A stretch of DNA of 64,000 bases from Actinobacteria bacterium OV320 (GTDB taxonomy: Bacteria; Actinomycetota; Actinomycetes; Streptomycetales; Streptomycetaceae), in NCBI GenBank assembly GCA_001298545.1, contig LJCX01000001.1, forward strand, positions 62,001-126,000, written 5' to 3'. Shown here in pieces: positions 20,190 to 53,307 of this stretch. The position numbers and the translations under genes were made by a program. Each line of letters opens with the position of its first letter. Position 1 is the first letter of the stretch. Below the pieces are notes generated by a model. It saw only the letters and a program-made list of their open reading frames with translations. It ran no database searches and was not told the origin of the DNA.

Positions 20190-20206
20190 TTCCAACGATG
20201 TAAAAA
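20190..20206 (+). promoter_or_regulatory. LacI operator-like site upstream of the transporter operon
   Basis: TTCCAACGATGTAAAAA shares AACGWTG followed by K-AAA with the sites at 18719 and 31086. It lies 173 bases before the binding-protein start, within the 520-base region 19860-20378 that otherwise holds only a short tandem duplication of GCACGGCTACT near 20261-20298 and no gene. Confidence 0.5.
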
Positions 20207-20378
20207 CCTCTGTGCGGCGGGTCGAACGACCTTTCCCGCCAGGGGAGAAGCACTTTTCTCGGCACGGCTACTGCACGGCTACTGCTCGGCTACGGCACGA
20301 CCTTGCTCGACCTGTTCGACCTCTGCTCGTTCACCACCTCCCCAGTGTTCCTTCCGCGTCGCCCGGATCGGGGTCACC

Positions 20379-21473: not shown

Positions 21474-21589
21474 TTGTTCGTCAGGGGCCCGCCCGCCCTG
21501 CCCACCGCGGGCCCCTGCCGCTCGCCTTCGCTTCTTCACCGCCGCACCGCATCGCTCCACACGCACCGCATCGCATCCTGGAGGCACAG

Positions 21590-30971: not shown

Positions 30972-31085
30972 CGAACCCTTCCTCGTACAGAGGCCGTGAC
31001 CACGCCCGGCGGGAGTGCGGGCTCCTGGCCGGGAGCCCGCGGGGGACAACTGCACACCGGTGTCGGGACGCTCGGTCCAGCGGCC

Positions 31086-33488: not shown

Positions 33489-33925
33489 TGAGCGCAAGGA
33501 GCACCGTGAGGAGTGTCCTTCGCGCCGTGGATGGGTTCACACGCGCCGGTTGTTCGAGGCGGCGGTGTGCCCGTACACGCTGTTCGCCGGGGAGCCGTCG
33601 TACCGGCTTCCGAGAGAGCACGAAGAGGTGCGGGGTGTCGCCGTGGACCACGCCGGGGCCGCCCGAGCCGTTGACGCCGAGGCAGGCGCACGGTCCTCCG
33701 GACGGACGCTCCGGGAGCCGCTTCGTTCTCCGTCTTCCTTCCTCGGCCGGTGGCCCCCACGGGACTCAAGTCCGCGTGTGGTGAGGCGGATCGGTTGCCA
33801 GGAACACGGTGCACCGGGGAGGTGGTCGACAACCTTGCCCAAACCTTGCCTCGTAGGTGACCGGGTGGTTGGGTGACGCCTGCTGGGGAAGGGCGACGCG
33901 CGCGGGGTGGGGCGGGGGAGAAGGC
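33489..33925. other. Non-coding stretch upstream of the SARP gene
   Basis: No supported gene. Several overlapping open frames exist on both strands, but none has a ribosome binding site, a domain or coherent codon bias. The stretch presumably contains the SARP promoter. Confidence 0.4.
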
Positions 33926-36900: not shown

Positions 36901-37066
36901 GGCCCGCGCCCTCGGCGGACTCGGCGCGGCCCATCACGCGCTCGGCGACACCGCCCCCGCCCTCGGCCGCTACGAGCGGGCGCTCACCCTCTACGCCGAA
37001 CTCGGCATGCCCGAGGCCGACGCCATCAGGACCAGGCTGGCCACGGTGACCGGGCCCCGTCCGTAG
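33926..37066 (+). CDS. AfsR/SARP-family regulator with NB-ARC and TPR domains
   Basis: A 1046-residue regulator. Residues 1-95 are an OmpR-type winged helix (FRLLGPVELWAAGRPVDLG), about 105-255 the BTAD activation domain (DLVDVHRFRGLVERARR to LGTAPGAEARREH), then a Gly-Thr linker, an NB-ARC ATPase (about 300-560; P-loop GTAGVGKTALA, Walker B MLIVLDNA) and at least seven C-terminal TPR units (about 740-1040, repeating QALTLFREVGDRYGEAGAL). Such proteins activate secondary metabolism or development. The GTG at 33926 has GGAGAAGG nearby. No biosynthetic cluster is visible beside it, so its targets lie elsewhere or are the neighbouring methyltransferase. Confidence 0.92.
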   Translation: MTGFRLLGPVELWAAGRPVDLGPAKRRTVLAALLVDAGRWVAAETLIDRVWGEDPPAQVRATLYAHIARVRRVLLEATLHLTGGAEGPPTAPSLLRGSGGYRLDVPRDLVDVHRFRGLVERARRTDHSDAVRVATLREAMRLWQGEPLAGLPGDWAARTRESWLHLRLDAVLAWADAELRVGGHVVVVDTLSVLVAEHPLTEPLAVALMRGLHAAGRAPEALACYAALQKRLADELGTAPGAEARREHAAILSGRAAAPTARRTPPGTGTGTGTGTGTSAATGTGLGIGIGSVGAVPAQLPMEAAGFTGREEELARLEKVLVAAAERPTAVVVSAVSGTAGVGKTALAVHWAHRARDRFPDGQLYVNLRGYDPERPMTALDALGRFLTALGVSGQDIPLEADDRAARYRTEVAGRRMLIVLDNAATVEQVRPLLPGTGSCAVLVTSRDSLAGLVAREGAHRLDLDLLPAAVARTLLRRLVGPRAEAEPDAVDALAEQCARLPLALRVAAELAAARPATPLADLVTELTDQQRRLDLLDADGDPRAAVAVVFSWSLRHLPADVARTFRLLGLHPGPDLDVHAAAALTGSSPADPRRALDVLARAHLVQPMEAARYGMHDLLRAYATRLATAEDAPRLREAALDRLFDHYLATAAAAMNCLHPAEAHLRPAAPEPATPVPDLSDPDAARAWLNTERTCLTAVSAHSAARGRPTHAIRLSLTLYRYLISGHHTDGLTMHGHARDAARLLADPVSEARALLGLGTAYWQLARHEPARQHLQEALALFRRVGDPTGQARALVNLGLLEERLGRFLPAVAYLEQALSLYRSAGDRWGEAIALKDLASVEGQLGDYGQAADHLQQALTLLRLAGNPYLEAHALNDLGTVETRLGRLGSAARRQEQALTLFREVGDRYGEAGALHSLGVVHSRRDQHAQAAECQREALTLYCQNGDRDGEARALNGLGEAVCAAGRLAEALVHHTDALAIAEDIGSPGQQARALGGLGAAHHALGDTAPALGRYERALTLYAELGMPEADAIRTRLATVTGPRP
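34722..34757. repeat. Hexanucleotide repeat tract encoding a Gly-Thr linker
   Basis: A run of GGCACC units, the last drifting to GGCACA and GGCACG, encodes six Gly-Thr pairs between the BTAD and NB-ARC domains of the SARP protein. Repeat number could vary by slippage without breaking the frame. Confidence 0.85.
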
Positions 37067-38283: not shown

Positions 38284-41200
38284 TCAGTAGGCGTCGCGTC
38301 GTCCCGTCGCCCCGTTCGGGGTGCCGGTGATCGTGAACTGCGAGCCCGGTTCGACGAGTACGTCACCCTGGGCCGAGCCGGTGATCGTCACACCGGACAG
38401 GGTGGCGCTGCCGCGGGCGCCGCTCATCGCGAGGATGCCGGAGCCGTTGTTGGATCTGTCGATGCGCACGTTCGTGATCTTCACGCCCGGCATCGCGCCG
38501 CCACCCGTCTTGAACTGGATGCCGTCGTACGTCGAGTCGTGGATCTCGGTGTCCCGGATGGTGACGCCCGGGATGTCCTGGCCCTGAGCGAACAGGGTGA
38601 TCGCGCCGAACTCCTGGTCCTCGTTCCAGAACGCGCCGCCCGTGCGGTACAGGGCGTTGCCCGCGATCAGGGTCTCACCGGTGAAGGGCAGCGGGTCGTG
38701 GTCGGTGGCCAGCATGATGCCCGGGTAGTTCATGGTGTCGGAGACGACGTTGTTCTCGATGGTGTTGCCGTGACCGCCGTACACCGCGATGCCGTTGGCC
38801 CGCCAGGGCAGCTGGATCGTGTTGTTGCGGAAGTGGTTGTCGTGGCCGACGTCCACCGAGGTGTCCTTCACGTACTTGCTGGCCCACACGGCGAGCGCGT
38901 CGTCGCCGGTGTTGCGGAAGGAGGAGTTGTAGACGGTCGAGTTGCGGGTGCCGTTGGCGAAGTTGATGCCGTCGGCGTAGGTGTCGCGGATGCGTACCCC
39001 GGAGAACTCCAGCCCGTCGCCGGGGCCCCACAGCTCGGGGATGTTGGAGTAGTCGCGGCCTGCCCAGACACCGACGTTGGCGTGCTCGATCCACACGTTG
39101 GTGATCTTCGTGCCCTTGCCGAAGCGGCCGTTGAGGCCGACGCCGCCCTCGGCGTTGCCGTCGCCGCCGCGGATGGTGCCCGAGCCGAAGATGGCGATGT
39201 CGGAGATCTGGGTGTTGGAGTCGATGTCGAAGCCGAAGTTGCCCTCGTGCGGGTGGTTGATGCCGCCCGCCTCCTGCGGCGGGGTCAGCGTGTACAGCTG
39301 GGAGTGCCACATGCCCGCGCCGCGGACGGTGACGTCCCGGATGCCCACCTGGTTGAACTGCCCCCGGTTCAGCGGGTCGTCGGTGAGGATCTTCTGCTCC
39401 TGACGCCACTGCCCGGCCGGGATCCACACACAGGAGATCTGGCCGTTCTGATCGGCGGTGACCGCCCGCTGGATGGCGTCGGTGTCGTCGAGGCCGTCGT
39501 TCGGTACGGCGCCGTACTCCGTGATCGAGGTGCAGGCGGCAGGCTTGGACGCGGCGGGAGCCACCTGCTCCAGGTCGACCAGGTCGATCACCTGGAAGGC
39601 GGCCGAGTCGCCCGCGTCGCGCTGGAGGCGGAACACGGTGCCCGCCGGATAGCTCCTCGACAGCAGCGCGTGCGACTCGTCGAACAGGCGCCGCGCGTCG
39701 CCGCCCGGCCGGTTGGTCAGTCCCTCGGGGTCGTCGGTGGTGCCGTACAGCCAGCTGTGCTTGGACGACAGGGACAGCTTCTGCACGAAGGCGCCGTCCG
39801 CGTACAGGCTGACGGTGGCGTCCGCGCCGCCGCCGGACGCGGAGTCCGGGACGGAGTTGCGCACCACGAGGGAGTTGGCCGCGTTCGTGGAGGTGAACTC
39901 CACGTACTGGCCGGTCGAGGTGAGCCGGACCGACCTGCGGCCGGAGGACTCGGTGGCGAAGTTGGTGTGCCCGAAGGTGCGTTGGGCGTCGGCGGTGAGG
40001 AGCGTGCCGGTGTAGCGGCCGTCCTCCGCCTCGTACTCGGTGTAGGGCACGGCGGCACCGCGGCCGACCACCAGGGACTTGGCGAGAACGTTGTTGTTCT
40101 CGTTCGTCTCGGCGACGATCCCGGTGGCGTCGGCGGTCGCGGTGAGGGCCGCCCCGCCCGCGGTGGCTGTCCAGGTCCCGCTGATCGCCACGTTCACCGT
40201 GGCGTCGGGGGCCACCTGGCCGGTGCTGCCGTTGAGGGTGGTCGAGCCGGCCTGGACCCGGGTCACCGAGCCGGCCGGAGCGGCGCTGATCCCGCGGTTG
40301 TGCACGGCGACGGTGAAGGAGACGGCCTGGCCGACGGCCGGATTGGCCGGGCTGGTGATGATCGAGGCCACCTCCAGGTCGGGGCCGGGCGCCTGGGTGA
40401 CGACCAGTCTGTTCGCGGACGTCCGGCTGTTGTTGCTGTCGTCCAGCTCCGGGACGGTGTTCCGGGGGTCGACGACGGCCGACACGCCGTAACTGCCCGC
40501 CGCTCGGGTGCCGGTGGCGACGTCCACGGTCGCCGAGGCGCCCGGGTCCAGCGCCGGGACGGCGGCGCCGCCCGCGACCGTGCCCTCCACGCTGACGTCG
40601 ACGGTGGTGGCGGCGGAGCGCGCGGTGCCCGCGTTGCGCACGGTGGCCTTGACGGTGACCGCGTCCCGCTCGCTGGGCGCGGCCGGCGTCCAGTCGAGCG
40701 TGGTGACCGTCAGGTCGGGCGCGGGGGCGGCGGTGCCCACGACCTGGAACTCGGCGACCTGCCCGCCGGGCGCACCGGAGTTGGCGGTGAAGTGCAGCCG
40801 TACGTCGGACCAGCGGCCGCTGACCGGGACGGTCACCGTGTTGCCGCTCGCCGGGCTGAAGGAGTACGACTTCGCGGCGGCCAGCGAGGTGAAGCCGCTC
40901 GACGACTGCTGCCGGCCGAGGACCTGGATGGTCTGGGTGCGGGCCGCCCATACCGGGTCGGGGTTGAGCTTGACCACCACGCCGGTCACGTCGGCGTCGG
41001 CACCCAGCGCGACGGTGAGATCCGCAGGGTGACCGGCCGCCTCCCAGTAGGTGGAGACGGAGTCGTCGGTGGCGTTGGCGGCCACATAGGTCTGCGCGGT
41101 GGAGGTGGCCTCGACCGGCTTGTTGCGGGCCAGGTTGGTGCCGGTGGGCGGCGGGTCGCCCGGGTCCGTGCCGCCGTCCTCGCCGTACACCTCCAGCTCG

Positions 41201-41712
41201 GAGAGCTGCGCGGCGTTCCAGCCGGTGTTGCCGGAGACGTTGACGCGGACGTACCGCACGTCCGCCGGGGAGGCGAGGGCGACGGACACCGTGTTGGCCC
41301 GGTCCGGGTCGAACACCCGGACCGCCGAGGCCGCGAGAGTGCTGAAGCCGGAGCCGTCGCTGCTGCCCTGCAGTGACAGGGTCTCGTTGCGGCTGCCCCA
41401 GCCGGTCGGGAGTTTGAGCACCACCCGGTCCACCTCCCGGGCCGCGCCGAGGTCGATCTGGGCCCACTGCGGGAAGGACCCCGCCGGGCCCTCCCAGTAG
41501 GAGGCCTGGACACCGTCGGTGAGGTTGCGGGCGGGGTATTCGGCGTGCGCGCCGCCCGCCGTGGCGGGGCGGCCGAGGGCGAGGTTGACGTCGGCCGCGG
41601 CGGGAGCCGCCTGGGCGGGGGAGGCGAAGGCCAGCGGAAGCAGGCCGGTCGACAGGAGCCCGGCGACGACCGCGCCGGTCACGGGCCGACGGCCCGGTGG
41701 TCTCCAACTCAT
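38284..41712 (-). CDS. Secreted multidomain GH87-like alpha-1,3-glucanase/mycodextranase
   Basis: A 1142-residue secreted protein. Order: signal peptide (1-36), two F5/8 C (discoidin) domains (about 40-170 and 182-320, with NLALGRPAT and NLARNKPVE), two CARDB domains (about 322-430 and 440-550), a CBM6/35-like domain (about 557-720, starting EYEAEDG), and a C-terminal right-handed beta-helix (about 730-1142, starting TEYGAVPNDGLDDTDAI). In the beta-helix, Asp914 (ADGIN) and Asp937-Asp938 (TGDDA) keep the 23/24-residue spacing of the three catalytic Asp of characterised GH87 alpha-1,3-glucanases. AGAGGACC precedes the ATG at 41712. It is divergent from a larger homologue. Confidence 0.78.
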   Translation of the reverse strand: MSWRPPGRRPVTGAVVAGLLSTGLLPLAFASPAQAAPAAADVNLALGRPATAGGAHAEYPARNLTDGVQASYWEGPAGSFPQWAQIDLGAAREVDRVVLKLPTGWGSRNETLSLQGSSDGSGFSTLAASAVRVFDPDRANTVSVALASPADVRYVRVNVSGNTGWNAAQLSELEVYGEDGGTDPGDPPPTGTNLARNKPVEATSTAQTYVAANATDDSVSTYWEAAGHPADLTVALGADADVTGVVVKLNPDPVWAARTQTIQVLGRQQSSSGFTSLAAAKSYSFSPASGNTVTVPVSGRWSDVRLHFTANSGAPGGQVAEFQVVGTAAPAPDLTVTTLDWTPAAPSERDAVTVKATVRNAGTARSAATTVDVSVEGTVAGGAAVPALDPGASATVDVATGTRAAGSYGVSAVVDPRNTVPELDDSNNSRTSANRLVVTQAPGPDLEVASIITSPANPAVGQAVSFTVAVHNRGISAAPAGSVTRVQAGSTTLNGSTGQVAPDATVNVAISGTWTATAGGAALTATADATGIVAETNENNNVLAKSLVVGRGAAVPYTEYEAEDGRYTGTLLTADAQRTFGHTNFATESSGRRSVRLTSTGQYVEFTSTNAANSLVVRNSVPDSASGGGADATVSLYADGAFVQKLSLSSKHSWLYGTTDDPEGLTNRPGGDARRLFDESHALLSRSYPAGTVFRLQRDAGDSAAFQVIDLVDLEQVAPAASKPAACTSITEYGAVPNDGLDDTDAIQRAVTADQNGQISCVWIPAGQWRQEQKILTDDPLNRGQFNQVGIRDVTVRGAGMWHSQLYTLTPPQEAGGINHPHEGNFGFDIDSNTQISDIAIFGSGTIRGGDGNAEGGVGLNGRFGKGTKITNVWIEHANVGVWAGRDYSNIPELWGPGDGLEFSGVRIRDTYADGINFANGTRNSTVYNSSFRNTGDDALAVWASKYVKDTSVDVGHDNHFRNNTIQLPWRANGIAVYGGHGNTIENNVVSDTMNYPGIMLATDHDPLPFTGETLIAGNALYRTGGAFWNEDQEFGAITLFAQGQDIPGVTIRDTEIHDSTYDGIQFKTGGGAMPGVKITNVRIDRSNNGSGILAMSGARGSATLSGVTITGSAQGDVLVEPGSQFTITGTPNGATGRRDAY

Positions 41713-42244
41713 GAGGTCCTCTGTTCGGTCGGTGAACACGGGGGAGGGCACGGCTGGTCGGCCCCTGGAGGTGCGGGGAGACGCGGGAGGTGCGGGGAGG
41801 AGAGTGCGGGAGCGGCCCCGAGGGGCCGACCCGAGAGGGGAAACGCCGACCGTGCACGCAAATTGAGTTGAACAGTCGATTCTTTGCGGAAAGTACGCCC
41901 ACAGGTTTCTAGCGTGTCTCCGCTTTGTCAACGGTCCCGGCAGTAGCGGCAGTTGGCCACGCAAGCGGCTTGCGTTGCTTGCGGATCCGCTTGCGTCATC
42001 GTGAAAGCCCGCACGAAAGTCGCTGATCCCGGCCCATGGGCAGGTCGTCCAAGGAGGGAGCGGCCGGATCCAGCGCTGTCCCGACGGTGGACGAACCCCT
42101 ATCGGTCTGCAACTCTCTGAGCGATTCACGCAAAAGCGGTGCCCTGTCCCGCACATTGAGGCGTGTCCGGTGCACCGTCGAGCCGACCCATCCAGCAACC
42201 GCGTCCCTCCGCGCCACGGCGGACCGGACGGAGATCGGGGAGAG
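41713..42244. promoter_or_regulatory. Divergent promoter region of the GH87-like pair
   Basis: This 532-base gap holds no gene. Reading toward the minus-strand gene, TTGACA (complement of 41926-41931) and TAGAAA (complement of 41906-41911) could be a promoter, though the 14-base spacer is short. The LacI-type boxes at 41959-41995 lie just upstream of it and between the two genes. Confidence 0.5.
41959..41995. promoter_or_regulatory. Cluster of LacI-type operators (GCTTGCG boxes)
   Basis: ACGCAAGC-G-GCTTGCGT (41959-41975) is a perfect 8-1-8 palindrome. Two more GCTTGCG boxes follow at 41977-41983 and 41989-41995, around the palindrome GCGGATCCGC. The same half-site appears in the inverted repeat before the LacI gene at 46628, so that repressor is the likely ligand. 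Confidence 0.65.
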
Positions 42245-45200
42245 ATGAGACCGAAGCGCAGGGGATGGCGAGCCATGGCCGCCGTCCTCACGACCAGCCT
42301 GCTGATGCTGGGCGCGTCGTCACTGACCGACGCCTCGGCGGCCGACGGCCCCAACCTCGCGGCCGGACGGCCCACCGCGGCCGCCAGCGCGCACACCGAG
42401 TACGCCGCCCGCAACATCACCGACGGCGACCAGAACTCCTACTGGCAGAGCGCGGGCGGCGACCTGCCGCAATGGGTCCAGGCCGACCTCGGCTCCACCG
42501 CCCGCGTCGACGAGGTCGTGCTGAAGCTGCCCGCGTCCTGGGAGACCCGCAGCCAGACCCTGTCCGTGCAGGGCAGCGCCGACGGCACCGGCTTCAGCAC
42601 CCTGAAGGCGTCCGCCGCCTACACCTTCAGCTCCGGCTCGGCCAACACCGTCACGGTGGCCTTCCCGGCCGGGCAGACCCGCTACGTACGGATCGAGATC
42701 ACCGCCAACACCGGCTGGCAGGCCGCCCAGCTCTCGGAACTCGAGGTGCACGCGGCGGGCGAGTCCTCCACCGACCTCGCCCGCGGCCGCACCCTCACCG
42801 CGAGCAGCCACACCGAGACGTACGTGCCGTCCAACGCCGCGGACGGCAACAAGGCCAGCTACTGGGAGAGCCGCAACAACGAACTCCCCCAGTGGATCCG
42901 GGCCGACCTCGGCTCCTCCCTCGGCGTCAACCGGGTGGTGCTCAAGCTGCCCGACGGCTGGGGCGCCCGCACCCAGACCCTGAAGATCCAGGGCAGCGCC
43001 AACGGGACCGACTTCACCGACCTGACGGCGTCGAGGGCGTACCAGTTCGCCCCGGCCGACGGGAACACGGTGACGATCACCTTCGACACGGCCACCACGC
43101 GGTACGTCCAGGTCCTGGTCACCGCCAACACCGGTCAGCCGGCCGCCCAGTTGTCCGCGCTGGAGGTCTACGGCCCGGCGACCGGCGACACCCAGGCGCC
43201 CACCGCTCCCGCGAACCTGGCGTTCACCGAGCCTGCCGCCGGGCAGATCCGGCTGACCTGGAACGCCTCCACCGACAACACCGCCGTCACCGGCTACGAC
43301 GTCTACGCCGACAACACCCTGCTGACCTCGGTCGCCGGCAACGCCACCACCTACACCGACACCCGGCCCGCGAGCGCCACGGTCTCCTACTTCGTGCGCG
43401 CCAAGGACGCCGCCGGGAACGTCTCCGGCAACAGCAACACCGTCACCCGACGCGGCACGACGGGCGACACCCAGGCGCCCACCGCTCCCGCGGACCTGGC
43501 GTTCACCGAGCCTGCCGCCGGGCAGATCCGGCTGACCTGGAACGCCTCCACCGACAACACCGCCGTCACCGGCTACGAGGTGTACGGCAACAACACCCTG
43601 CTGACCACCGTCGCGGGCAACGTCACCACGTACACCGACAACCGCCCCGCCACCGTGACCGTGTCCTACGTCGTGCGGGCGAAGGACGCCGCCGGGAACG
43701 TCTCCGGCGACAGCAACTCCGTCACACGGACCGGCACTTCCGGCCCCGGCTCCAACCTCGCGGTCGGCAGGCCCATCACCGCCTCCTCGACCGTGCACAC
43801 CTTCGTGGCCGAGAACGCCAACGACAACTCCACCAGCACCTACTGGGAGGGCTCCGGCCACCCCGCCACGCTGACCGTGCAGCTCGGCGCCAACGCCGAC
43901 GTCACCTCACTGGTCCTGCGCCTCAACCCGGACAGCTCCTGGGGCCCGCGCACCCAGACCGTCCAGGTGCTCGGGCGTGAGCAGTCCGCGAGCGGCTTCA
44001 CCTCGCTGGTCGCCGCCAAGGAGTACGCCTTCAGCCCGGCGAGCGGCAACACGGTGACCATCCCGGTCGGCGCCCGCGTCGCCGATGTCCAGCTGCGGTT
44101 CACCGCCAACTCCGGTGCCCCGGCAGGGCAGATCGCCGAGTTCCAGGTGATCGGCACCGCCGCGCCCAACCCCGATCTGCAGGTCACCTCACTGACCGCC
44201 GCGCCGGTCTCGCCCGTCGAGTCGGACACCATCACCCTGGCCGCCACCGTCCGCAACAGCGGCGAGACCGCCGCGCCCGCCAGCAGCCTCGCGCTGCGGC
44301 TGAACGGCACCAAGGTCGCCAACGCTCCCGTGGGCGCCCTGGCCGCCGGCGCGCAGACCACCGTCAGCGCCTCGATCGGCGCCCGCGAGACGGGCACCTA
44401 CCAGCTCAGCGCCGTCGCGGACGACGGCGGCACGGTGATCGAGCAGAACGAGAGCAACAACACCTACACGGCGCCCACCGCGCTCGTCGTGCGCCCGGTC
44501 AGCAGCTCCGACCTGGTCCCGGTGATCACCACGTCCCCGTCCGGCCCGGCCGCGGGCGACACGGTCACCTTCCGGGTCGCCGTGCGCAACCAGGGCACCG
44601 TCGCCTCGGCGAGCGGCGCCCATGCCCTCACCCTCGCCCTGGTCGACTCCAAGGGGGCGACCGTCCGCACCGTGACCGGCTCCCACGACGGGGCGATCGC
44701 CGCCGGTGCCACCACCGCACCGGTCACCCTCGGCACCTGGACCGCCGTCAACGGCACCTACACGGTGCGCGCCACGGTCGCGGCCGACGGCAACGAGCTC
44801 CCCGTGAAACGGGAGAACAACACCGTCGAGCAGTCCCTGTTCGTCGGACGCGGCGCCAACATGCCCTACGACATGTACGAGGCCGAGGACGGCGCCACGG
44901 GCGGCGGCGCCACCACCGTCGGGCCCAACCGCACCGTCGGCGACCTCGCGGGCGAGGCGTCGGGACGCAAGGCCGTCACCCTGAACGACACCGGCCAGTA
45001 CGTGGAGTTCACCACCCGGGCGACCACCAACACCCTCGTGACCCGCTTCTCCATCCCGGACGCGCCGGGCGGCGGCGGCACCGACGCCACCTTGAACGTC
45101 TACGTCGACGGCACCCTCCGCAAGGCCCTGCCACTCACCTCGCGGTACGCCTGGCTGTACGGCGCCGAGGCCTCGCCCGGCAACGCGCCGTCCGCGGGAG

Positions 45201-46528
45201 CCCCGCGCCACATCTACGACGAGGCGCACCTGATGCTGGGCGAGACCGTCCCCGCAGGTGCGAAGATCCGGCTGCAGAAGGACGCCGCCAACACCTCGCG
45301 CTACGCGATCGACTTCGTCAGCCTGGAGCAGGTCGCGCCGGTCGCCAACCCCGACCCGGCGGCGTACGCCGTCCCGGCCGGCCTCACCCACCAGGACGTG
45401 CAGAACGCCCTCGACCGGGTCCGGATGGACACCACCGGCAAGCTCACCGGCGTCTACCTGCCGCCGGGCGACTACCAGACCTCGTCCAAGTTCCAGGTGT
45501 ACGGCAAGGCCGTGCAGGTGGTCGGCGCCGGACCCTGGTACACCCAGTTCCACGCCCCGGCCGGCCAGGAGAACACCGACGTCGGCTTCCGGGCCGAGGC
45601 GAGCGCCAAGGGCTCCGCGTTCCGCGGCTTCGCCTACTTCGGCAACTACACCTCGCGCATCGACGGGCCGGGCAAGGTGTTCGACTTCGCCAACGTCTCG
45701 GACATCGTCATCGACAACACCTGGACCGAGCACATGGTCTGCCTGTACTGGGGCGCCAACACCGACCGGATGACGGTCAGCAACGCGCGCATCCGCGACA
45801 CGTTCGCCGACGGCGTCAACATGACGAACGGGTCGACGGACAACCACGTCGTCAACAACGAGTCCCGCTCCTCCGGCGACGACAGCTTCGCGCTGTTCTC
45901 GGCCATCGACGCGGGCGGCGCCGACATGAAGGACAACGTCTACGAGAACCTGACCTCGCTGCTGACCTGGCGGGCCGCGGGCATCGCCGTGTACGGCGGC
46001 TACGACAACACCTTCCGCAACATCCACATCGCCGACACCCTGGTCTACTCCGGCATCACCATCAGCTCGCTGGACTTCGGCTATCCGATGAACGGCTTCG
46101 GCACCGACCCGACGACGGTGGAGAACGTCTCCGTGGTCCGCTCCGGCGGGCACTTCTGGGGCGCCCAGACCTTCCCCGGCATCTGGCTGTTCTCCGCGTC
46201 CAAGGTGTTCCAGGGCATCCGCGTCAACGACGTCGACATCGTCGACCCGACCTACTCCGGAATCATGTTCCAGACGCAGTACGTCGGCGGACAGCCGGTG
46301 AACCCGATCAAGGACACCGTCCTCACCGACATCTCGATCACCGGCGCCCGCAAGAGCGGTGACGCCTACGACGCCAAGTCCGGCTTCGGACTGTGGGCGA
46401 ACGAGCTGCCCGAGGCCGGCCAGGGTCCGGCGGTCGGGGAGGTCACCTTCAACGGACTGCGCCTGAACGGCAACGCCGTGGACATCCGGAACACCACCTC
46501 CACCTTCAAGATCAACATCAATCCCTGA
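42245..46528 (+). CDS. Secreted multidomain GH87-like alpha-1,3-glucanase/mycodextranase with FN3 domains
   Basis: A 1427-residue secreted protein. Order: signal peptide (1-34), two F5/8 C domains (about 36-165 and 178-312), two nearly identical FN3 domains (about 315-405 and 407-498), a third F5/8 C domain (about 503-640), two CARDB domains (about 641-750 and 754-870), a CBM6/35-like domain (about 875-1030, MYEAEDG) and a C-terminal beta-helix (about 1036-1427). Asp1189 (ADGVN) and Asp1212-Asp1213 (SGDDS) have the GH87 catalytic spacing. The array of binding modules fits action on insoluble cell-wall glucan. It is divergent from a smaller homologue and followed by a LacI gene, a sugar ABC transporter and a GH13 glucosidase. 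Confidence 0.78.
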   Translation: MRPKRRGWRAMAAVLTTSLLMLGASSLTDASAADGPNLAAGRPTAAASAHTEYAARNITDGDQNSYWQSAGGDLPQWVQADLGSTARVDEVVLKLPASWETRSQTLSVQGSADGTGFSTLKASAAYTFSSGSANTVTVAFPAGQTRYVRIEITANTGWQAAQLSELEVHAAGESSTDLARGRTLTASSHTETYVPSNAADGNKASYWESRNNELPQWIRADLGSSLGVNRVVLKLPDGWGARTQTLKIQGSANGTDFTDLTASRAYQFAPADGNTVTITFDTATTRYVQVLVTANTGQPAAQLSALEVYGPATGDTQAPTAPANLAFTEPAAGQIRLTWNASTDNTAVTGYDVYADNTLLTSVAGNATTYTDTRPASATVSYFVRAKDAAGNVSGNSNTVTRRGTTGDTQAPTAPADLAFTEPAAGQIRLTWNASTDNTAVTGYEVYGNNTLLTTVAGNVTTYTDNRPATVTVSYVVRAKDAAGNVSGDSNSVTRTGTSGPGSNLAVGRPITASSTVHTFVAENANDNSTSTYWEGSGHPATLTVQLGANADVTSLVLRLNPDSSWGPRTQTVQVLGREQSASGFTSLVAAKEYAFSPASGNTVTIPVGARVADVQLRFTANSGAPAGQIAEFQVIGTAAPNPDLQVTSLTAAPVSPVESDTITLAATVRNSGETAAPASSLALRLNGTKVANAPVGALAAGAQTTVSASIGARETGTYQLSAVADDGGTVIEQNESNNTYTAPTALVVRPVSSSDLVPVITTSPSGPAAGDTVTFRVAVRNQGTVASASGAHALTLALVDSKGATVRTVTGSHDGAIAAGATTAPVTLGTWTAVNGTYTVRATVAADGNELPVKRENNTVEQSLFVGRGANMPYDMYEAEDGATGGGATTVGPNRTVGDLAGEASGRKAVTLNDTGQYVEFTTRATTNTLVTRFSIPDAPGGGGTDATLNVYVDGTLRKALPLTSRYAWLYGAEASPGNAPSAGAPRHIYDEAHLMLGETVPAGAKIRLQKDAANTSRYAIDFVSLEQVAPVANPDPAAYAVPAGLTHQDVQNALDRVRMDTTGKLTGVYLPPGDYQTSSKFQVYGKAVQVVGAGPWYTQFHAPAGQENTDVGFRAEASAKGSAFRGFAYFGNYTSRIDGPGKVFDFANVSDIVIDNTWTEHMVCLYWGANTDRMTVSNARIRDTFADGVNMTNGSTDNHVVNNESRSSGDDSFALFSAIDAGGADMKDNVYENLTSLLTWRAAGIAVYGGYDNTFRNIHIADTLVYSGITISSLDFGYPMNGFGTDPTTVENVSVVRSGGHFWGAQTFPGIWLFSASKVFQGIRVNDVDIVDPTYSGIMFQTQYVGGQPVNPIKDTVLTDISITGARKSGDAYDAKSGFGLWANELPEAGQGPAVGEVTFNGLRLNGNAVDIRNTTSTFKININP
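43189..43560. repeat. Duplicated FN3 module inside the GH87-like gene
   Basis: The sequences beginning GGCGACACCCAGGCGCCCAC at 43189 and again at 43465 are almost identical for about 95 bases, encoding the two FN3 starts. This indicates a recent in-frame module duplication or gene conversion. Confidence 0.8.
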
Positions 46529-46588: not shown

Positions 46589-46620
46589 GCGCAAGCCGTT
46601 TGCGCGGCTTGCGCTAGCCT
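46589..46620 (+). promoter_or_regulatory. LacI autoregulatory operator and -10 region
   Basis: GCGCAAGCCG (46589-46598) and CGGCTTGCGC (46605-46614) are perfect 10-bp inverted arms around TTTGCG. The right arm abuts TAGCCT (46615-46620), a good -10 box, seven bases before the ATG at 46628. Binding would directly block this probably leaderless promoter. Confidence 0.65.
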
Positions 46621-46627
46621 TGCGCCC

Positions 46628-47638
46628 ATGACGCGACGACTTGCTCAGGTTGCCAAGAAGGTAGGGGTCAGCGAAGCCACGGTCAGCCGGGTGCTCAACG
46701 GCAAGCCGGGGGTCTCCGAGACCACCCGTCAGTCGGTGCTGACGGCCCTGGACGTGCTCGGCTACGAGCGCCCCACCCAGCTGCGCGGCGAACGCGCCCG
46801 CCTGGTGGGACTCGTCCTGCCGGAGCTGCAGAACCCGATCTTCCCGCTGCTCGCCGAGGTCATCGGCGGCGCGCTGGCCCAGCAGGGGCTGACCCCCGTG
46901 CTGTGCACCCAGACCAAGGGCGGCGTCTCGGAGGCGGACTACGTCGACCTCCTCCTTCAGCAGCACGTCTCCGGTGTGGTCTTCGCCGGAGGGCTGTTCG
47001 CGCAGGCCGACGCCCCGCACGAGCACTACCGGCAGCTCGCCGAGCGGCGCATCCCGGTGGTCCTGATCAACGCGCCCACGGAGGATCTGGACTTCCCGTG
47101 CGTCTCCTGCGACGACGCCGTCGCGGTGGAACAGGCCTGGCGCCACCTCTCCCTGCTCGGCCACGAGCGCATCGGGGTCGTCCTCGGGCCCCGCGACCAC
47201 ATGCCCTCCCGGCGCAAGCTCGCCGCCCTCCAGGCCGCGGCCGAGGCGGCAGGCTCCCCGCTCCCCGAAGACCGGGTGGAGCGCTCGATGTTCTCTCTGG
47301 AGGGCGGTCAGGCGGCCACCTCGCGCCTGCTGGACCGCGGGGTCACCGGCATCATCTGCGCCAGCGACCCGCTGGCCCTCGGCGCCATCAGGGCCGCCCG
47401 GCGGCGCGGCCTCGCGGTGCCCGAGCAGGTGTCCGTCGTCGGCTTCGACGACTCCGCCTTCATGAACTGCACGGAGCCTCCGCTGTCCACCGTGCGCCAG
47501 CCCATCGAGGCCATGGGGCGGGCCGCCGTGGACCTGCTGTGCACCCAGATCCAGGGCGGCGAAGTGCCGCCCGGTGAGCTGCTGTTCGAGCCCGAGCTGG
47601 TCGTGCGCGGCTCCACGGCCCAGGCGCCGCGCGACTGA
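46628..47638 (+). CDS. LacI-family regulator of the alpha-glucan locus
   Basis: A 336-residue repressor with the LacI helix-turn-helix at residues 1-50 (RRLAQVAKKVGVSEATVSRV, NGKPGVSETTRQ, LGYERP hinge) and a sugar-binding domain (LVGLVLPELQNPIFPLLAEV to the end; VVGFDDSAFMNCTEPPLSTV). The ATG at 46628 follows a -10 box without a ribosome binding site, so it is probably leaderless. GCTTGCG-type operators before itself and before the GH87-like pair suggest it controls alpha-1,3-glucan degradation; sensing of nigero- or maltooligosaccharides is a guess. Confidence 0.9.
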   Translation: MTRRLAQVAKKVGVSEATVSRVLNGKPGVSETTRQSVLTALDVLGYERPTQLRGERARLVGLVLPELQNPIFPLLAEVIGGALAQQGLTPVLCTQTKGGVSEADYVDLLLQQHVSGVVFAGGLFAQADAPHEHYRQLAERRIPVVLINAPTEDLDFPCVSCDDAVAVEQAWRHLSLLGHERIGVVLGPRDHMPSRRKLAALQAAAEAAGSPLPEDRVERSMFSLEGGQAATSRLLDRGVTGIICASDPLALGAIRAARRRGLAVPEQVSVVGFDDSAFMNCTEPPLSTVRQPIEAMGRAAVDLLCTQIQGGEVPPGELLFEPELVVRGSTAQAPRD

Positions 47639-47706: not shown

Positions 47707-47738
47707 CGGCCGGCCCACGGACCCCCGTGGGCCGGCCG
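47707..47738 (+). terminator. 14-bp terminator after the LacI gene
   Basis: CGGCCGGCCCACGG (47707-47720) and its exact complement (47725-47738) flank a 4-base loop and are followed by TTTC. Confidence 0.8.
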
Positions 47739-47862: not shown

Positions 47863-47978
47863 TTACGAAATCAGCGCGAGATATTGCGCAGTCTTGTTGG
47901 CGGTGATTGAGTGTGCGGCGCCCCACCTCGTACTGATGAGGGGGCGCCTTCCACGTTCATGCCCGAAGGGGACCACCC

Positions 47979-49394
47979 ATGAGAAGAGCTCGGTTCCGCC
48001 GCACCCGCCGCGCCGGCGCGGTCACCCTCGTCTCCGCTCTCACACTGACGGCGCTCGCCGCCTGCGGCACGAGCAGCAGCGACGACGGCGACAACGGCGA
48101 CGGGAACAGCGCGAACGCCGAGCCGGCCGCGCCGCTGGACCCCAAGACCAAGGTGACCATCACCATCGACTGCATGCCGCCGGCGGCCAAGAAGGCCGAG
48201 CTCAAGGAGTGGAACGAGGACGTCAAGGAGTTCAACAAGACGTACCCCAACGTCACCGTGCAGGGCCGCTCCACCCCGGGCCAGTGCCTGGAGCCGCCGC
48301 GGTTCACCGCGATGCTCAAGGCGAAGTCCCAACCGGACGTGTTCTACACCTACTTCACCGACCTCGACCAGGTCCTCGACAACGACGGCGCCCAGGACAT
48401 CAGCGCCTACGTCAACGACAGGACCGTGCCCCTGCTGAAGGACATCGACCCGGACGTCCTCGGTTCGCTCAAGAAGGACGGCAAGCTCTACGGCCTGCCC
48501 ACCAGCAACTACCGGATGGGCCTGCTCATCAACCGCTCGCTCTTCGAACGGGCCGGCCTCGACCCCGACACCCCGCCCGCCACCTGGGAGGACGTCCGGG
48601 CGGCGGCGAAGAAGATCGCCGGACTCGGCGGCGGCGTGGCCGGCTTCGGCGAGTACAGCGCCGGCAACACCGGCGGCTGGCACTTCACCGCGCAGATGTA
48701 CAGCCTCGGCGGTGAGGTCGTCGACTCCTCCGGCACGAAGGCCGCGTTCGACGACGCGATCGGCAAGCAGGTCGCCCAGAACCTCCACGCGATGCGCTGG
48801 GAGGACGACGCCATGGGCAAGACCCAGCTGCTGAAGTGGGGCGACCTGCAGAAGCAGATCGCCACCGACAAGCTCGGCATGTTCCTCGCCGCGCCCGACG
48901 ACGTGACCTACATGGTCCAGCAACTCGGCGCCAAGTACGAGAACTTCGGCATGGGCCCGATCCCCGGCGGCAAGAACACCCTCGCCGGCGGCAACAACTA
49001 CATGATCAAGAAGGGCATCTCGCCCGACAAGGTCAAGGCCGCGATCGCCTGGCTCAACTTCAAGTTCACCACCGTCGGCAAGGGACAGTACGACTGGGAG
49101 CGCACCAAGGCCGACAGCCTCCCCGTCGGACTCCCGCAGCCCAACCTGTGGCTGAACGACAGCAAGACCAAGGACGACGCCGCCCGTCAGCAGTTCGCCA
49201 CCATGCCGGTGCAGAACTTCAAGGCCTTCATGGACAACCCGGTCCCGGGCAAGGCCGAGCCGCCGAAGGCACAGGAGATCTACAAGGTCCTCGACAACGT
49301 GATGTCCGGCATCCTCACCAACGAGGACGCCGACATCGACAAGCTCCTGTCGACCGCGGAGACCCAGGTGAACCAGGTCCTCGCCAACCAGTGA
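47979..49394 (+). CDS. Sugar ABC transporter substrate-binding lipoprotein (SBP family 1, CUT1)
   Basis: A 471-residue oligosaccharide-binding lipoprotein. After a basic N-terminus and hydrophobic stretch, the lipobox LTALAAC places the lipidated cysteine near residue 28, followed by a Ser/Asp/Asn-rich linker. FTAMLKAKSQPDVFYTYF and LKKDGKLYGLPTSNYRMGLL are typical of extracellular solute-binding family 1. AAGGGG precedes the ATG. With two permeases downstream and a GH13 glucosidase, the ligand is likely an alpha-glucooligosaccharide. Confidence 0.9.
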   Translation: MRRARFRRTRRAGAVTLVSALTLTALAACGTSSSDDGDNGDGNSANAEPAAPLDPKTKVTITIDCMPPAAKKAELKEWNEDVKEFNKTYPNVTVQGRSTPGQCLEPPRFTAMLKAKSQPDVFYTYFTDLDQVLDNDGAQDISAYVNDRTVPLLKDIDPDVLGSLKKDGKLYGLPTSNYRMGLLINRSLFERAGLDPDTPPATWEDVRAAAKKIAGLGGGVAGFGEYSAGNTGGWHFTAQMYSLGGEVVDSSGTKAAFDDAIGKQVAQNLHAMRWEDDAMGKTQLLKWGDLQKQIATDKLGMFLAAPDDVTYMVQQLGAKYENFGMGPIPGGKNTLAGGNNYMIKKGISPDKVKAAIAWLNFKFTTVGKGQYDWERTKADSLPVGLPQPNLWLNDSKTKDDAARQQFATMPVQNFKAFMDNPVPGKAEPPKAQEIYKVLDNVMSGILTNEDADIDKLLSTAETQVNQVLANQ

Positions 49395-49541: not shown

Positions 49542-50504
49542 ATGTCGGCCCCCACCCTCACCCAGGACCCGGCGGCCAAGGAACGCCGTCCCCGCCGGCC
49601 GCGTGCCGGCACCGTCCGGCCCCCGGCCGGAGGCCTCGGCAAAGCCCTGCGCCGCAATGTCACCGCCCACGGATTCCTCATCGGCGCGGTGCTCTGCTTC
49701 GCCTTCTTCTCCTGGTACCCGATCGTCCGCGAGTTCCTGCTGGCCTTCCAGAAGACCGAGGACGGCCAGGTCAGCTGGACCGGCTGGGACAACTTCGTCA
49801 CCATCTGGAACGACCCCGCCTTCGGCCAGGCCTGGCGCAACACCCTCTGGTTCACGGCCCTGGCACTCGTCCTGGGCTTCGCCGTCCCCTTCGTCACGGC
49901 CCTCGTCATCAACGAGTTCCGGCACGGCCAGGGCTATCTGCGGCTCCTGGTCTACCTGCCCGTCATGCTGCCGCCCACCGCCTCGGTACTGCTCTTCAAG
50001 TACCTGTACGACCCCGGGTACGGCATGTTCAACGAGGTGCTGGACGTCTTCGGCATCCCCGCCCAGCAGTGGCTCCAGGACCCCGACACCGCGATGCTCT
50101 CCGTCGTCGTCGCCTCCACCTGGATGAACATGGGCGGCGCGACCCTCATCTACCTGGCCGCGCTCCAGAGCGTCCCGGGCGAACTGTACGAGGCCGCCGA
50201 ACTCGACGGGGCCGGCCTGCTGCGCAAGGTGTGGCACGTGACGATCCCGCAGACCCGGCTGATCCTGGCGCTGATGCTGCTCATGCAGATCATCGCCACG
50301 ATGCAGGTCTTCATCGAGCCCTTCCTGCTGACCGGCGGCGCCGGACCCGAGGGGTCCACCACGACCGTCGTCTACCTGATCTACCAGTACGCCTTCAACT
50401 TCAACAACTACGGTGCCGCGGCGGCGCTCGGCCTGATCCTGCTCGTCACGCTGGCCGTCTTCTCGGCCGTGTACGCCAGGCTCAACCGCGCCACCGAGGA
50501 GTAG
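49542..50504 (+). CDS. Sugar ABC transporter permease (MalF-like, CUT1)
   Basis: A 320-residue permease with six predicted membrane helices and the EAA loop YEAAELDGAGLLRKVWHVTIP typical of carbohydrate CUT1 transporters. The N-terminal 40 residues are soluble. GAGGAG precedes the ATG. It partners with the next gene. No ATPase gene is present in the cassette, so a shared MsiK-type ATPase must energise it. Confidence 0.92.
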   Translation: MSAPTLTQDPAAKERRPRRPRAGTVRPPAGGLGKALRRNVTAHGFLIGAVLCFAFFSWYPIVREFLLAFQKTEDGQVSWTGWDNFVTIWNDPAFGQAWRNTLWFTALALVLGFAVPFVTALVINEFRHGQGYLRLLVYLPVMLPPTASVLLFKYLYDPGYGMFNEVLDVFGIPAQQWLQDPDTAMLSVVVASTWMNMGGATLIYLAALQSVPGELYEAAELDGAGLLRKVWHVTIPQTRLILALMLLMQIIATMQVFIEPFLLTGGAGPEGSTTTVVYLIYQYAFNFNNYGAAAALGLILLVTLAVFSAVYARLNRATEE

Positions 50505-50523: not shown

Positions 50524-51399
50524 ATGTCCACACGCACGCTCATCTCGCCCGCCGCCCTCGCCCGTCCGCGCGGCAGGCTGCTGTACTGGCTGTGCTTCGC
50601 GCTCGTCGTCGTCCTGTTCACGCTGGCCTTCCTCGGCCCGCTCTACTGGATGGTGTCCGGCGGGCTCAAGACCACCCAGGAAGCCGTCCAGACACCCCCG
50701 ACCTGGGTGCCCGGCTCCGTCCACCCGGAGAACTACCGGCGGGCCTGGGGGGGGATGGACCTCGCCCGCCTGCTCCTGAACACCCTGTACTACGCGTTCG
50801 GCGCGCTCGCCTTCCAGCTGGTGCTGGACGTCGCCGCCGCCTACTCCCTGTCCAAGCTGCGGCCCGTCCTGGGCAAGGCGATCCTCGGGCTGATGCTCGT
50901 CACCCTGATGATCCCGGCGACCGTCCTCGTCGTCCCGCAGTACCTCACCGTGCTGGACATGCCGATCGTCGAGCGCAACCTGCTCAACTCGCCCTGGGCG
51001 ATCTGGCTTCCGTCGGTGACCAACGCCTTCAACATCTTCCTGCTGAAGCGGTTCTTCGACTCCATCCCCAAGGAACTCCTGGACGCGGCCTCCATGGACG
51101 GCGCGGGTCCGCTGCGCGTCCTGTGGTCGGTCGTCCTGCCGATCTCCCGGCCCATCCTCGGCGTGGTGTCGATCTTCGCGGTCGTCGGTGTCTGGAAGGA
51201 CTTCCTCTGGCCGATGCTGGTGCTGCCCGACCCCACCGGCCAGACCCTCGCCGTCGGCATCTACTCGCTCGCCACCAGCGTGCCCGAGAACGTCCTGATC
51301 GCGGCCCTCACCATCGCGTCCCTGCCGACCCTGCTGCTGTTCCTGCTCTTCCAGCGCAACATCATGAGCGGGCTGACCGCGGGCGGCCTCAAGGGCTGA
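50524..51399 (+). CDS. Sugar ABC transporter permease (MalG-like, CUT1)
   Basis: A 291-residue permease with about six membrane helices and the EAA loop LLDAASMDGAGPLRVLWSVVLP. It begins 19 bases after the first permease with GGGGGAG upstream, so the two are co-translated closely. The C-terminus LLLFLLFQRNIMSGLTAGGLKG is typical of CUT1 permeases. Confidence 0.92.
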   Translation: MSTRTLISPAALARPRGRLLYWLCFALVVVLFTLAFLGPLYWMVSGGLKTTQEAVQTPPTWVPGSVHPENYRRAWGGMDLARLLLNTLYYAFGALAFQLVLDVAAAYSLSKLRPVLGKAILGLMLVTLMIPATVLVVPQYLTVLDMPIVERNLLNSPWAIWLPSVTNAFNIFLLKRFFDSIPKELLDAASMDGAGPLRVLWSVVLPISRPILGVVSIFAVVGVWKDFLWPMLVLPDPTGQTLAVGIYSLATSVPENVLIAALTIASLPTLLLFLLFQRNIMSGLTAGGLKG

Positions 51400-51571: not shown

Positions 51572-53188
51572 GTGGCAGCCCCGCACCCCGACAGGACCCC
51601 CGCCCCCTCGGACGACTGGTGGCGTGGCGCCGCCATCTACCAGGTGTATCCCCGCAGTTTCGCCGACGGCGACGGCGACGGCACCGGGGACCTGGCGGGC
51701 GTACGGGCGAGACTGCCCTATCTCGCCGAACTGGGCGTCGACGCCATCTGGTTCACCCCCTGGTACCTCTCCCCGCTCGCCGACGGCGGCTACGACGTCG
51801 CCGACTACCGCACCATCGACCCCGCCTTCGGCACCCTCGACGAGGCCGAGAAGCTGATCGGAGAGGCCCGGGCCCTCGGCATCCGCACCATCGTCGACAT
51901 CGTCCCCAACCACGTCTCCGACCAGCACCCGTGGTTCCGGGCCGCGCTCGCCGCCGGACCCGGCAGCCCCGAGCGCAAGCTGTTCCACTTCCGCCCCGGA
52001 CGCGGCGAGCACGGCGAACTGCCGCCCAACGACTGGCCGTCGCAGTTCGCCGGCCGGACCTGGACCCGGGTCGAGGACGGCGAGTGGTACCTGCACCTGT
52101 TCACCCCTCAGCAGCCCGACCTCAACTGGTCCCACCCGGCGGTCCGCGAGGAGCACGAGGACGTCCTGCGCTTCTGGTTCGAGCGGGGCGTCGCCGGCGT
52201 CCGCATCGACTCGGCCGCCCTGCCCGCCAAGGACCCCGACCTGCCGGACTTCGTCGAGGGCCGCGACCCCCACCCGTACATCGACCGCGACGAACTGCAC
52301 GAGATCTACCGCTCCTGGCGCAGCGTCGCCGACGCCTACGACGGTGTCTTCGTCGGCGAGGTCTGGCTGCCGGACGCCGAGCGCTTCGCCCGCTACCTGC
52401 GCCCCGACGAGCTGCACACCGCCTTCAACTTCAACTTCCTGGCCTGCCCCTGGGACGCGGACCGGCTGCGCCCGGCCATCGACGACACCCTGGCCGAGCA
52501 CGCCCCGGTCGGCGCGCCCGCCACCTGGGTGCTGTGCAACCACGACGTGACCCGCACGGTCACCCGCTACGGCCGTGCGGACACCGGATTCGACTTCGCG
52601 ACCAAGGAGTACGGCACTCCGACCGACCTGGCGCTCGGCACCCGCCGGGCCCGCGCCGCCGCCCTCCTCACCCTCGCCCTGCCCGGCTCCGTCTACCTCT
52701 ACCAGGGCGAGGAACTCGGCCTGCCCGAGGCGGACATCCCGCGCGAGCGCATCCAGGACCCGATGCACTTCCGTTCCGCCGGCGCCGACCCGGGCCGTGA
52801 CGGCTGCCGGGTCCCGCTGCCGTGGACCGCCGACGACCCGTACGCGGGCTTCGGTTCGCGCGCCGAACCCTGGCTGCCGCAACCCGCGGGCTGGTCGGCG
52901 TACGCGGCCGACCTCCAGGCCGCCGACCCCGGCTCGATGCTGGCCCTCTACCGCACCGCGCTGCGGCTGCGCCGTACCGAGGCGGGCCTCGGCGACGGCC
53001 CGCTGGAGTGGCTGCCCGCCCCCGCCGGGGTCCTCGCGTTCCGCCGGGCGCCCGACCTGATCTGCGTGGTCAACCTGGCCGCGGCCCCGGCCACTCTTCC
53101 CGAGCATGATCACGTCCTGCTCGCCGGCGGACCCCTGGACGCCGAGGGCCGACTGCCGGGCGACACCGCGATCTGGCTGCGCGCATGA
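51572..53188 (+). CDS. Intracellular GH13 alpha-glucosidase
   Basis: A 538-residue cytoplasmic glucosidase of GH13 (oligo-1,6-glucosidase/alpha-glucosidase group). The catalytic triad is Asp213 (GVRIDSA), Glu263 (GEVWLPD) and Asp325 (CNHDVTR); region I is DIVPNHV and the barrel start AIYQVYPRSFADGDGDGTGD is typical. There is no signal peptide. The GTG start has AAAGGACC upstream. Encoded with the sugar transporter, it would cleave imported alpha-glucooligosaccharides to glucose; linkage preference (1,3, 1,4 or 1,6) cannot be read reliably. Confidence 0.9.
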   Translation: MAAPHPDRTPAPSDDWWRGAAIYQVYPRSFADGDGDGTGDLAGVRARLPYLAELGVDAIWFTPWYLSPLADGGYDVADYRTIDPAFGTLDEAEKLIGEARALGIRTIVDIVPNHVSDQHPWFRAALAAGPGSPERKLFHFRPGRGEHGELPPNDWPSQFAGRTWTRVEDGEWYLHLFTPQQPDLNWSHPAVREEHEDVLRFWFERGVAGVRIDSAALPAKDPDLPDFVEGRDPHPYIDRDELHEIYRSWRSVADAYDGVFVGEVWLPDAERFARYLRPDELHTAFNFNFLACPWDADRLRPAIDDTLAEHAPVGAPATWVLCNHDVTRTVTRYGRADTGFDFATKEYGTPTDLALGTRRARAAALLTLALPGSVYLYQGEELGLPEADIPRERIQDPMHFRSAGADPGRDGCRVPLPWTADDPYAGFGSRAEPWLPQPAGWSAYAADLQAADPGSMLALYRTALRLRRTEAGLGDGPLEWLPAPAGVLAFRRAPDLICVVNLAAAPATLPEHDHVLLAGGPLDAEGRLPGDTAIWLRA

Positions 53189-53205
53189 GCGACCCGCACA
53201 CTGTC

Positions 53206-53235
53206 ACTGGGTCCGGGTCCGGGTCCGGGTCCGGG
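53206..53235. repeat. Hexanucleotide GGGTCC repeat tract
   Basis: Four to five copies of GGGTCC follow the GH13 gene. An ATG at 53185 would read through them as a Ser-Gly run, but that extension looks non-coding. Confidence 0.75.
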
Positions 53236-53307
53236 TTCGGGGTCTTCCGGCCGCCGGCCCGGCGCCGCGGGGGAGAAGAGTCGCGGGGGAGGGGAGTCGC
53301 TGCCGCG

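Follow-up and report, generated by a model that had tools for sequence, protein, structure and literature searches.

A probable LacI-controlled locus for alpha-1,3-glucan utilisation in a Streptomyces

Introduction

Alpha-1,3-glucan is a glucose polymer found in fungal walls and in dental plaque, and bacterial sensing and use of it are poorly known. Here we describe a 64,000-nucleotide stretch of DNA from the streptomycete Actinobacteria bacterium OV320 (contig LJCX01000001.1, positions 62,001 to 126,000), referred to as the window, with coordinates counted from its first letter. Its closest relatives place this soil bacterium in Streptomyces. Two divergent genes in the window encode large secreted proteins of glycoside hydrolase family 87 (GH87), which we call P1 and P2. 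Behind P2 lie genes for a LacI-family regulator, an ATP-binding cassette (ABC) importer and a GH13 alpha-glucosidase. We consider it probable that this is a LacI-controlled locus for utilisation of alpha-1,3-glucan.

The closest described enzymes are Agl-KA of Bacillus circulans (5ZRU), Agl-FH1 of Paenibacillus glycanilyticus (6K0M) and an enzyme of Streptomyces thermodiastaticus (7C7D). P1 and P2 resemble them in the combination of a CatAgl_D1 domain with a right-handed beta-helix (D2) and in a catalytic Asp triad with 23/24 spacing. Agl-KA also carries discoidin-type accessory domains, as P1 and P2 do, and its discoidin and carbohydrate-binding modules bind alpha-1,3-glucan, according to the available part of the report (PMC6814745). 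The proteins described here differ in that two branches of the family lie head-to-head beside a regulator, an importer and a GH13 enzyme, and in that CARDB and fn3 modules are assigned by Pfam. As enzymes they are new members of the known family GH87; what is new is the setting, in which a LacI regulator, an ABC importer and a GH13 enzyme follow P2 and sites recur.

Loci of related type have been described. In Lachnoclostridium phytofermentans a cluster encodes a GH65 nigerose phosphorylase, a GH31_u1 alpha-1,3-glucosidase, an ABC importer and a LacI regulator, with a putative GH87 gene nearby; in the accessible text, degradation of nigerose is proposed (PMC9061262). The shared feature is GH87 near an ABC importer and LacI. 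Compared with what that text describes, the Streptomyces locus has GH13 rather than GH65 and GH31, has two GH87 genes, and has the candidate operator arrays described here. The predicted mutan polysaccharide utilisation locus of Prevotella melaninogenica, with PmGH87, shares the idea of a GH87-centred utilisation locus, but is of the TonB and surface-binding type of Bacteroidota, as far as the available portion of the paper goes (PMC13421300). In the same portion of this July 2026 paper it is stated that, to its authors' knowledge, no GH87-containing polysaccharide utilisation locus has been experimentally characterised (PMC13421300). Among the papers listed by searches of the open-access literature, we recognised no description of the Streptomyces GH87-LacI-ABC-GH13 locus or of its operator arrays. 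On the regulatory side, the nearest described systems are the MalR/AcrC-type regulators of actinobacteria, which likewise belong to the LacI family and have CTTGC-type half-sites in direct and inverted repeats, in the part of the source available (PMC5526262). Here, in contrast, the half-site is CTTGCG, and arrays of four half-sites lie at the promoters of lacI and the GH87 genes.

Results

A divergent pair of GH87 genes

P1 (38284..41712, minus strand; about 1142 residues from its ATG) and P2 (42245..46528, plus strand; 1427 residues) are both multimodular and predicted to be secreted. The first-pass annotation of the window had placed a giant divergent pair here, and both open reading frames were found where it put them. 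The listed P1 frame is over-extended at its 5' end, reaching 42420 only by way of an open upstream GTG. The likely start is the ATG at 41712, behind which lies a signal-peptide-like sequence (MSWRPPGRRPVTGAVVAGLL...), and the likely start of P2 is the ATG at 42245. Given these starts, the genes do not overlap and diverge across an intergenic region of about 532 bp (41713..42244). By Pfam, P1 comprises a signal-peptide-like N-terminus, two F5/8-type C domains, two CARDB domains, CatAgl_D1 and the CatAgl_D2 beta-helix; P2 comprises three F5/8-type C, two fn3 and two CARDB domains, followed by CatAgl_D1 and CatAgl_D2. This gives four accessory modules in P1 and seven in P2, fewer than the five to eight first proposed, a range reached only if CatAgl_D1 is counted, which is part of the catalytic unit. 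The catalytic units, from CatAgl_D1 to CatAgl_D2, occupy 38443..40050 on the minus strand for P1 (positions 791-953 and 991-1326 of the extended frame) and 44858..46480 on the plus strand for P2 (positions 897-1055 and 1075-1437 of the frame that opens at 42170). They are only 37% identical to each other.

Both proteins are members of GH87 and as enzymes are of known kinds. CatAgl_D1 and CatAgl_D2 (PF22815 and PF22816, curated cut-off 27 bits) match both far above the cut-off, in line with the GH87-like character first read from the letters. P1 scores 166 bits with the first profile and 117.9 bits with the second, compared with 41.6 bits for Beta_helix and 26.5 bits for Pect-lyase_RHGA_epim; for P2 the two values are 263.8 and 347.1 bits, and Beta_helix reaches 21.2 bits. 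The rival beta-helix profiles listed, which might have claimed the proteins, are thus far weaker. The best solved relatives by sequence are Agl-KA for P1 (5zru, E 1.4e-72) and Agl-FH1 for P2 (6k0m, E 2.8e-127). The catalytic unit of P1 was modelled (593 residues; predicted local distance difference test score, pLDDT, 85.8; predicted template-modelling score, pTM, 0.89), and the model superposes on 5zru with Z 43.6 over 544 residues, on 7c7d with Z 43.0 and on five 6k0 entries with Z 41.6-42.3. These seven GH87 entries match over 512-544 residues at Z 41.6-43.6, whereas the next match, an AlgE epimerase, reaches Z 28.6 over 337 residues. A Foldseek search with the same model gave the same family ranking, with GH87 structures far ahead of AlgE epimerases and polygalacturonases. 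The GH87 fold, a galactose-binding-like D1 and a right-handed beta-helix D2, is thus assigned to P1 by the model and to P2 by sequence. Other beta-helix families (pectate lyase/rhamnogalacturonase, polygalacturonase, AlgE epimerase) were considered and set aside on weaker sequence and fold scores. The NCBIfam profile search of P1 and P2 gave no GH87 match; its assignment of P2 as exoglucanase CbhB (114.7 bits against a cut-off of 1950) covers only the fn3 region, positions 336-527, and was rejected. The expectation that a simple annotation would see only discoidin proteins therefore fits NCBIfam but fails for Pfam, which names the family outright.

The catalytic Asp residues are in place. Counted from the likely start Met, the triad is D914, D937 and D938 in P1 (ADGIN ... 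GDD; 38899..38973, minus strand) and D1189, D1212 and D1213 in P2 (ADGVN ... GDD; 45809..45883, plus strand), as located by alignment and motif search. The first Asp precedes the pair by 23 and 24 residues in both, as the first-pass annotation stated, and the spacing is identical in Agl-KA (D1067, D1090, D1091). Alignment to 5zru places the P1 triad on the catalytic Asp of Agl-KA. The P2 triad was aligned against 6k0m and against a mutant chain, 6k0q (titled D1068A), which locates D1068 directly. Alanine mutants of Agl-KA at D1067, D1090 and D1091 retained 0.09, 2.84 and 3.12% activity after 18 h, in the available part of the report (PMC6814745). Across the six frames of the window there are exactly two matches to ADG[IV]N-19 residues-DD, one per protein, and four to the looser DG-21-DD, of which two lie outside P1 and P2.

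The triad is also conserved among relatives, where counts of P2 loci refer to the best 80 of 285 candidate loci from a search with P2. AD[GA][IV]N-19-DD is intact in 80/80 P2 orthologues and in 15/15 P1 orthologues, 85 weaker matches to the P1 query being left uncounted since P2 copies recur among them. ADA replaces ADG at the first catalytic Asp in six P2 orthologues, with the Asp residues themselves intact. These are L033, L035, L036, L095, L097 and L102, four of which are among the closest relatives of the P2 studied here. Four GH87 copies of a third type (L072, L074, L080 and L084) show D[GA]LN and DD with the spacing unchanged.

Candidate operator arrays

Two arrays of half-sites, both read on the plus strand, are candidate LacI operators. 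Array A (41960..41995) lies between P1 and P2 and reads CGCAAG-CGG-CTTGCG-TTG-CTTGCG-GATCCG-CTTGCG. Array B (46590..46624) reads CGCAAG-CCG-TTTGCG-CGG-CTTGCG-CTAGC-CTTGCG, ends 3 bp before the ATG of lacI and overlaps a TAGCCT -10-like box. The pattern CGCAAG-N3-YTTGCG-N3-CTTGCG-N5/6-CTTGCG has two exact matches in the window, the two arrays, and none in 100 shuffles of it, and across the 10.1-Mb genome the last three half-sites occur exactly at A and B only. Half-site arrays at these promoters are thus non-random. A first operator pattern (CGCAAGCNGNTTGCG) proved too strict. Allowing one mismatch gave 12 forward and 12 reverse matches genome-wide, compared with 39 and 45 for the control, which leaves only the two exact places informative. 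Upstream of lacI the conserved columns include TA...T at positions -13 to -8 relative to the lacI start, which suggests that the last half-site may cover the -10 box of lacI and that the lacI transcript may be leaderless.

Related sites occur at the same promoters in other genomes. CGCAA-N5-TTGCG, with many different spacers, was found exactly upstream of P2 in 26/80 loci (4/4000 shuffles) and upstream of lacI in 21/60 copies (1/3000 shuffles). Before the binding-protein gene it occurs in 2/50 loci, before permease 1 in 0/47 and before GH13 in 0/48. In the head-to-head loci L033, L034 and L095 the site between P1 and P2 is partly kept: the direct repeats stay and the inverted first half-site is degenerate.

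A core of the array, TTGCG-N3-CTTGCG-N5/6-CTTGCG, was derived from the two sites of the window and searched in 150 genomes of the same genus, including the one studied here. There are 41 core sites in 36/150 genomes, compared with 4 sites for a reversed-pattern control. Outside the window, 31 of the 39 sites lie 3 bp before a lacI orthologue and 5 within 1.5 kb of a GH87 gene, leaving 3 at neither. With the two from the window included, 32 are at lacI and 6 at GH87 (38/41 at one or the other). GH87 is present in 22 of the stretches (3 to 20 kb) around the 31 lacI-type sites. CatAgl_D2 is encoded in 34/36 core-bearing genomes against 53/114 of the others (Fisher p 6e-8, relatedness ignored); in two of the 34, G145 and G187, the core occurs only away from lacI and GH87. 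This survey and that of the P2 loci are not fully independent, with probable overlap at G032, G041 and G126.

Some core sites were found in other settings. The core matches in L129 and L138 consist of the same 26 bases. In L119 (10813-11860) a lacI gene with a core lies between sensor kinase and citrate synthase genes, with no importer, GH13 or GH87 in the stretch; L145, L146, L148 and L150 likewise have LacI and a core but none of the importer, GH13 and GH87 genes within the stretch covered.

Regulator, importer and GH13 genes

The regulator gene (46628..47638, plus strand) encodes a LacI helix-turn-helix domain (PF00356, 49.6 bits) and a periplasmic-binding-like effector domain (PF13377, 125.3 bits). 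Downstream is a terminator-like hairpin of 14 pairs (47707..47738, plus strand); since it follows lacI, the importer probably has its own promoter. A candidate operator of the importer operon, CGCGA-GATA-TTGCG, lies at 47875..47888 on the plus strand and has a 4-bp spacer. Palindromes of this form occur at the importer promoter in 39/50 loci against 5/2000 shuffles; the arms are constant and the spacer is GATA, TATC, GATC, CATC or TATA. No excess was seen with a spacer of 3 or 6 bp, nor for sites upstream of permease 1 or GH13. Also on the plus strand, and identified by profile matches, are the extracellular sugar-binding protein of the ABC importer (47979..49394) and its two permeases (49542..50504 and 50524..51399). 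Next is the GH13 alpha-glucosidase (51572..53188), identified by profiles and a PDB search, in which no signal peptide was evident when the sequence was read by eye. Its best PDB relatives are 8yif and 8yie (alpha-glucosidase, 535 bits), a match that does not link it to a linkage specificity.

The LacI protein is 55% identical to a paralogue encoded elsewhere in the same genome. The paralogue adjoins its own ABC genes and a GH13 gene whose product is 55-58% identical to that of the window. We take it to be the maltose (MalR) locus, one that could serve maltose in this genome. In a 2-kb stretch around the start of the paralogue gene the half-sites are of the CTTGCA type, and CTTGCG is absent. 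The separate 55% paralogue and the CTTGCG half-sites speak against the LacI of the window being MalR itself, in a comparison with this paralogue rather than with a named MalR sequence.

Other genes of the window were noted. The gene at 53185-53808 (plus strand) overlaps the end of GH13 by 4 bases; with 205.9 bits in Pfam its product matches the family of aminoglycoside 2''-adenylyltransferase / lincosamide nucleotidyltransferase, but it stays far under the listed NCBIfam resistance cut-offs. An AfsR/SARP-type regulator with NB-ARC and TPR domains, under the NCBIfam AfsR cut-off, is encoded near the locus at 33857-37066 (plus strand), and a large GH2-type protein carrying PA14 and Laminin_G_3 modules at 27696-31055 (minus strand). 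At 18825-24104 (plus strand) lie genes for a further LacI regulator, a Peripla_BP_4 binding protein and a BPD_transp_2 permease.

Gene neighbourhood in relatives

The gene neighbourhood recurs. An orthologue of lacI is present in 55/80 P2 loci and lies at most 400 bp 3' of P2 in 38/80. Binding protein, permease and GH13 are found together in 46/80, and these plus lacI in 37/80. This recurrent linkage of an extracellular hydrolase with an importer, a presumably intracellular glycosidase and a regulator is that expected of a polysaccharide utilisation locus of Gram-positive type. A P1 orthologue lies near P2 in 15 loci, 12 in tandem and 3 head-to-head, so the head-to-head arrangement is the rarer form of a wider locus. 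Further head-to-head cases of P1 and P2 were seen in L127 and L128.

A second version of the operon (L115-L118, L121, L131 and others) has a lacI 80-82% identical to that described here, with a core site. Its GH13 is 78-82% alike, its importer is just 41-59% alike, and its GH87 shares 36-38% identity with the third type, that of L072. The regulator and GH13 have therefore been kept, and importer and GH87 exchanged.

Discussion

The proposed scheme is read from sequence as regards activity on alpha-1,3-glucan, the specificity of transport and of GH13, binding by LacI, the inducer and the direction of regulation. A MalR-related LacI repressor would occupy the CTTGCG half-sites that lie between the GH87 genes and at the promoters of lacI and of the importer, and an imported alpha-glucoside would release it from the DNA. 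The two secreted proteins, predicted endo-alpha-1,3-glucanases from different branches of GH87, may bind insoluble alpha-1,3-glucan through their discoidin-type modules. Once induced, they would hydrolyse it outside the cell with inversion, using the Asp triad of ADG[IV]N...GDD. The released oligosaccharides would enter through the ABC importer, and the presumably intracellular GH13 alpha-glucosidase would turn them into glucose. The first-pass annotation, too, took the accessory modules to suggest attack on insoluble glucan.

Several observations weigh against this reading. Many relatives are without parts of the set of genes and sites. Neither lacI nor GH13 is present in 16/80 P2 loci (11/63 of those with full flanks), so GH87 does not need the partner set. 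In 9 of the 31 stretches with a lacI-type core site GH87 is absent, and G034 has core, lacI, importer and GH13 with CatAgl_D2 nowhere in the genome. Three core sites (L129, L130 and L138) are at neither lacI nor GH87. The exact core is absent from 114/150 genomes, 53 of them with CatAgl_D2, and exact CGCAA-N5-TTGCG is absent upstream of 54/80 P2 and 39/60 lacI copies. Within the locus, the terminator-like hairpin parts lacI from the importer genes, and the importer palindrome is weaker evidence than the array because its pattern was written after six related promoters had been seen. The recognition helix is identical in the LacI of the window and in its paralogue; the paralogue might therefore bind the same sites, and cross-talk is possible.

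If the neighbourhood is incidental, ordinary GH87 genes simply lie beside an unrelated maltose-like importer operon, with LacI controlling only the importer and itself. The P2 loci without lacI or GH13 are consistent with this, as are L122, L126 and L132, in which the importer, GH13 and lacI occur with no GH87 in the stretch covered. We regard it as unlikely in view of the core sites found at both the GH87 pair and lacI, two sites each, in this genome and in G032, G148 and G167, and of G157, in which the core also occurs at a P1 orthologue lying about 30 kb away from that genome's lacI site (L124). GH87 in 34/36 core-bearing genomes, and a distinct paralogous locus that fits maltose, point the same way. 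The arrays might instead be read by the MalR-type paralogue as part of general alpha-glucoside control. The shared recognition helix would allow this, and binding to CTTGCAG in direct and inverted repeats has been reported for the S. lividans MalR, in the part of the study available (PMC5526262). Yet 32/41 core sites lie 3 bp before the start of orthologues of the window's own LacI, and the half-sites around the paralogue are CTTGCA-type, which makes this explanation improbable.

The substrate and the purpose of the enzymes can also be read otherwise. One of the pair, most likely P1, could be a mycodextranase acting on nigeran (alternating alpha-1,3/1,4 linkages) or could prefer another mixed alpha-glucan, so that the pair would share a composite wall glucan. 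Characterised GH87 enzymes are all mutanases or mycodextranases, in the available text of one paper (PMC13421300), and actinomycete mycodextranases cluster by themselves, in that of another (PMC10696023); the low identity between the two catalytic units agrees with such a division. The nearest relatives of P1 among solved structures are, however, alpha-1,3-glucanases, and we consider a split of substrates doubtful, though the least unlikely of the alternatives weighed here. A role in attack on living fungi, by lysis or in competition, with the importer as a by-product route, would accord with fungal cell walls as targets of GH87 enzymes, in the accessible parts of two reports (PMC6814745, PMC10696023). 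The linked importer and intracellular alpha-glucosidase point rather to growth on the product, and mutan serves as a carbon source for soil Streptomyces that were isolated on it, according to the portion available (PMC11475409); we give attack as the main purpose little chance. Utilisation of alpha-1,3-glucan under LacI control thus stays our preferred reading.

Beyond this genome, we see an even chance of a Streptomyces-wide alpha-1,3-glucan regulon, in which one LacI sub-family would read a fixed CTTGCG array and govern exchangeable modules: three or more branches of GH87 and two dissimilar ABC importers would be swapped behind a conserved lacI-GH13 core. Since the locus supplies candidates for the regulator and its sites, for the importer and for the intracellular enzyme, the whole pathway is testable in a laboratory Streptomyces. 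The locus also offers a search key for more GH87 systems, and the Streptomyces-wide regulon, if true, would be one of the first systems of GH87-based utilisation to undergo testing.

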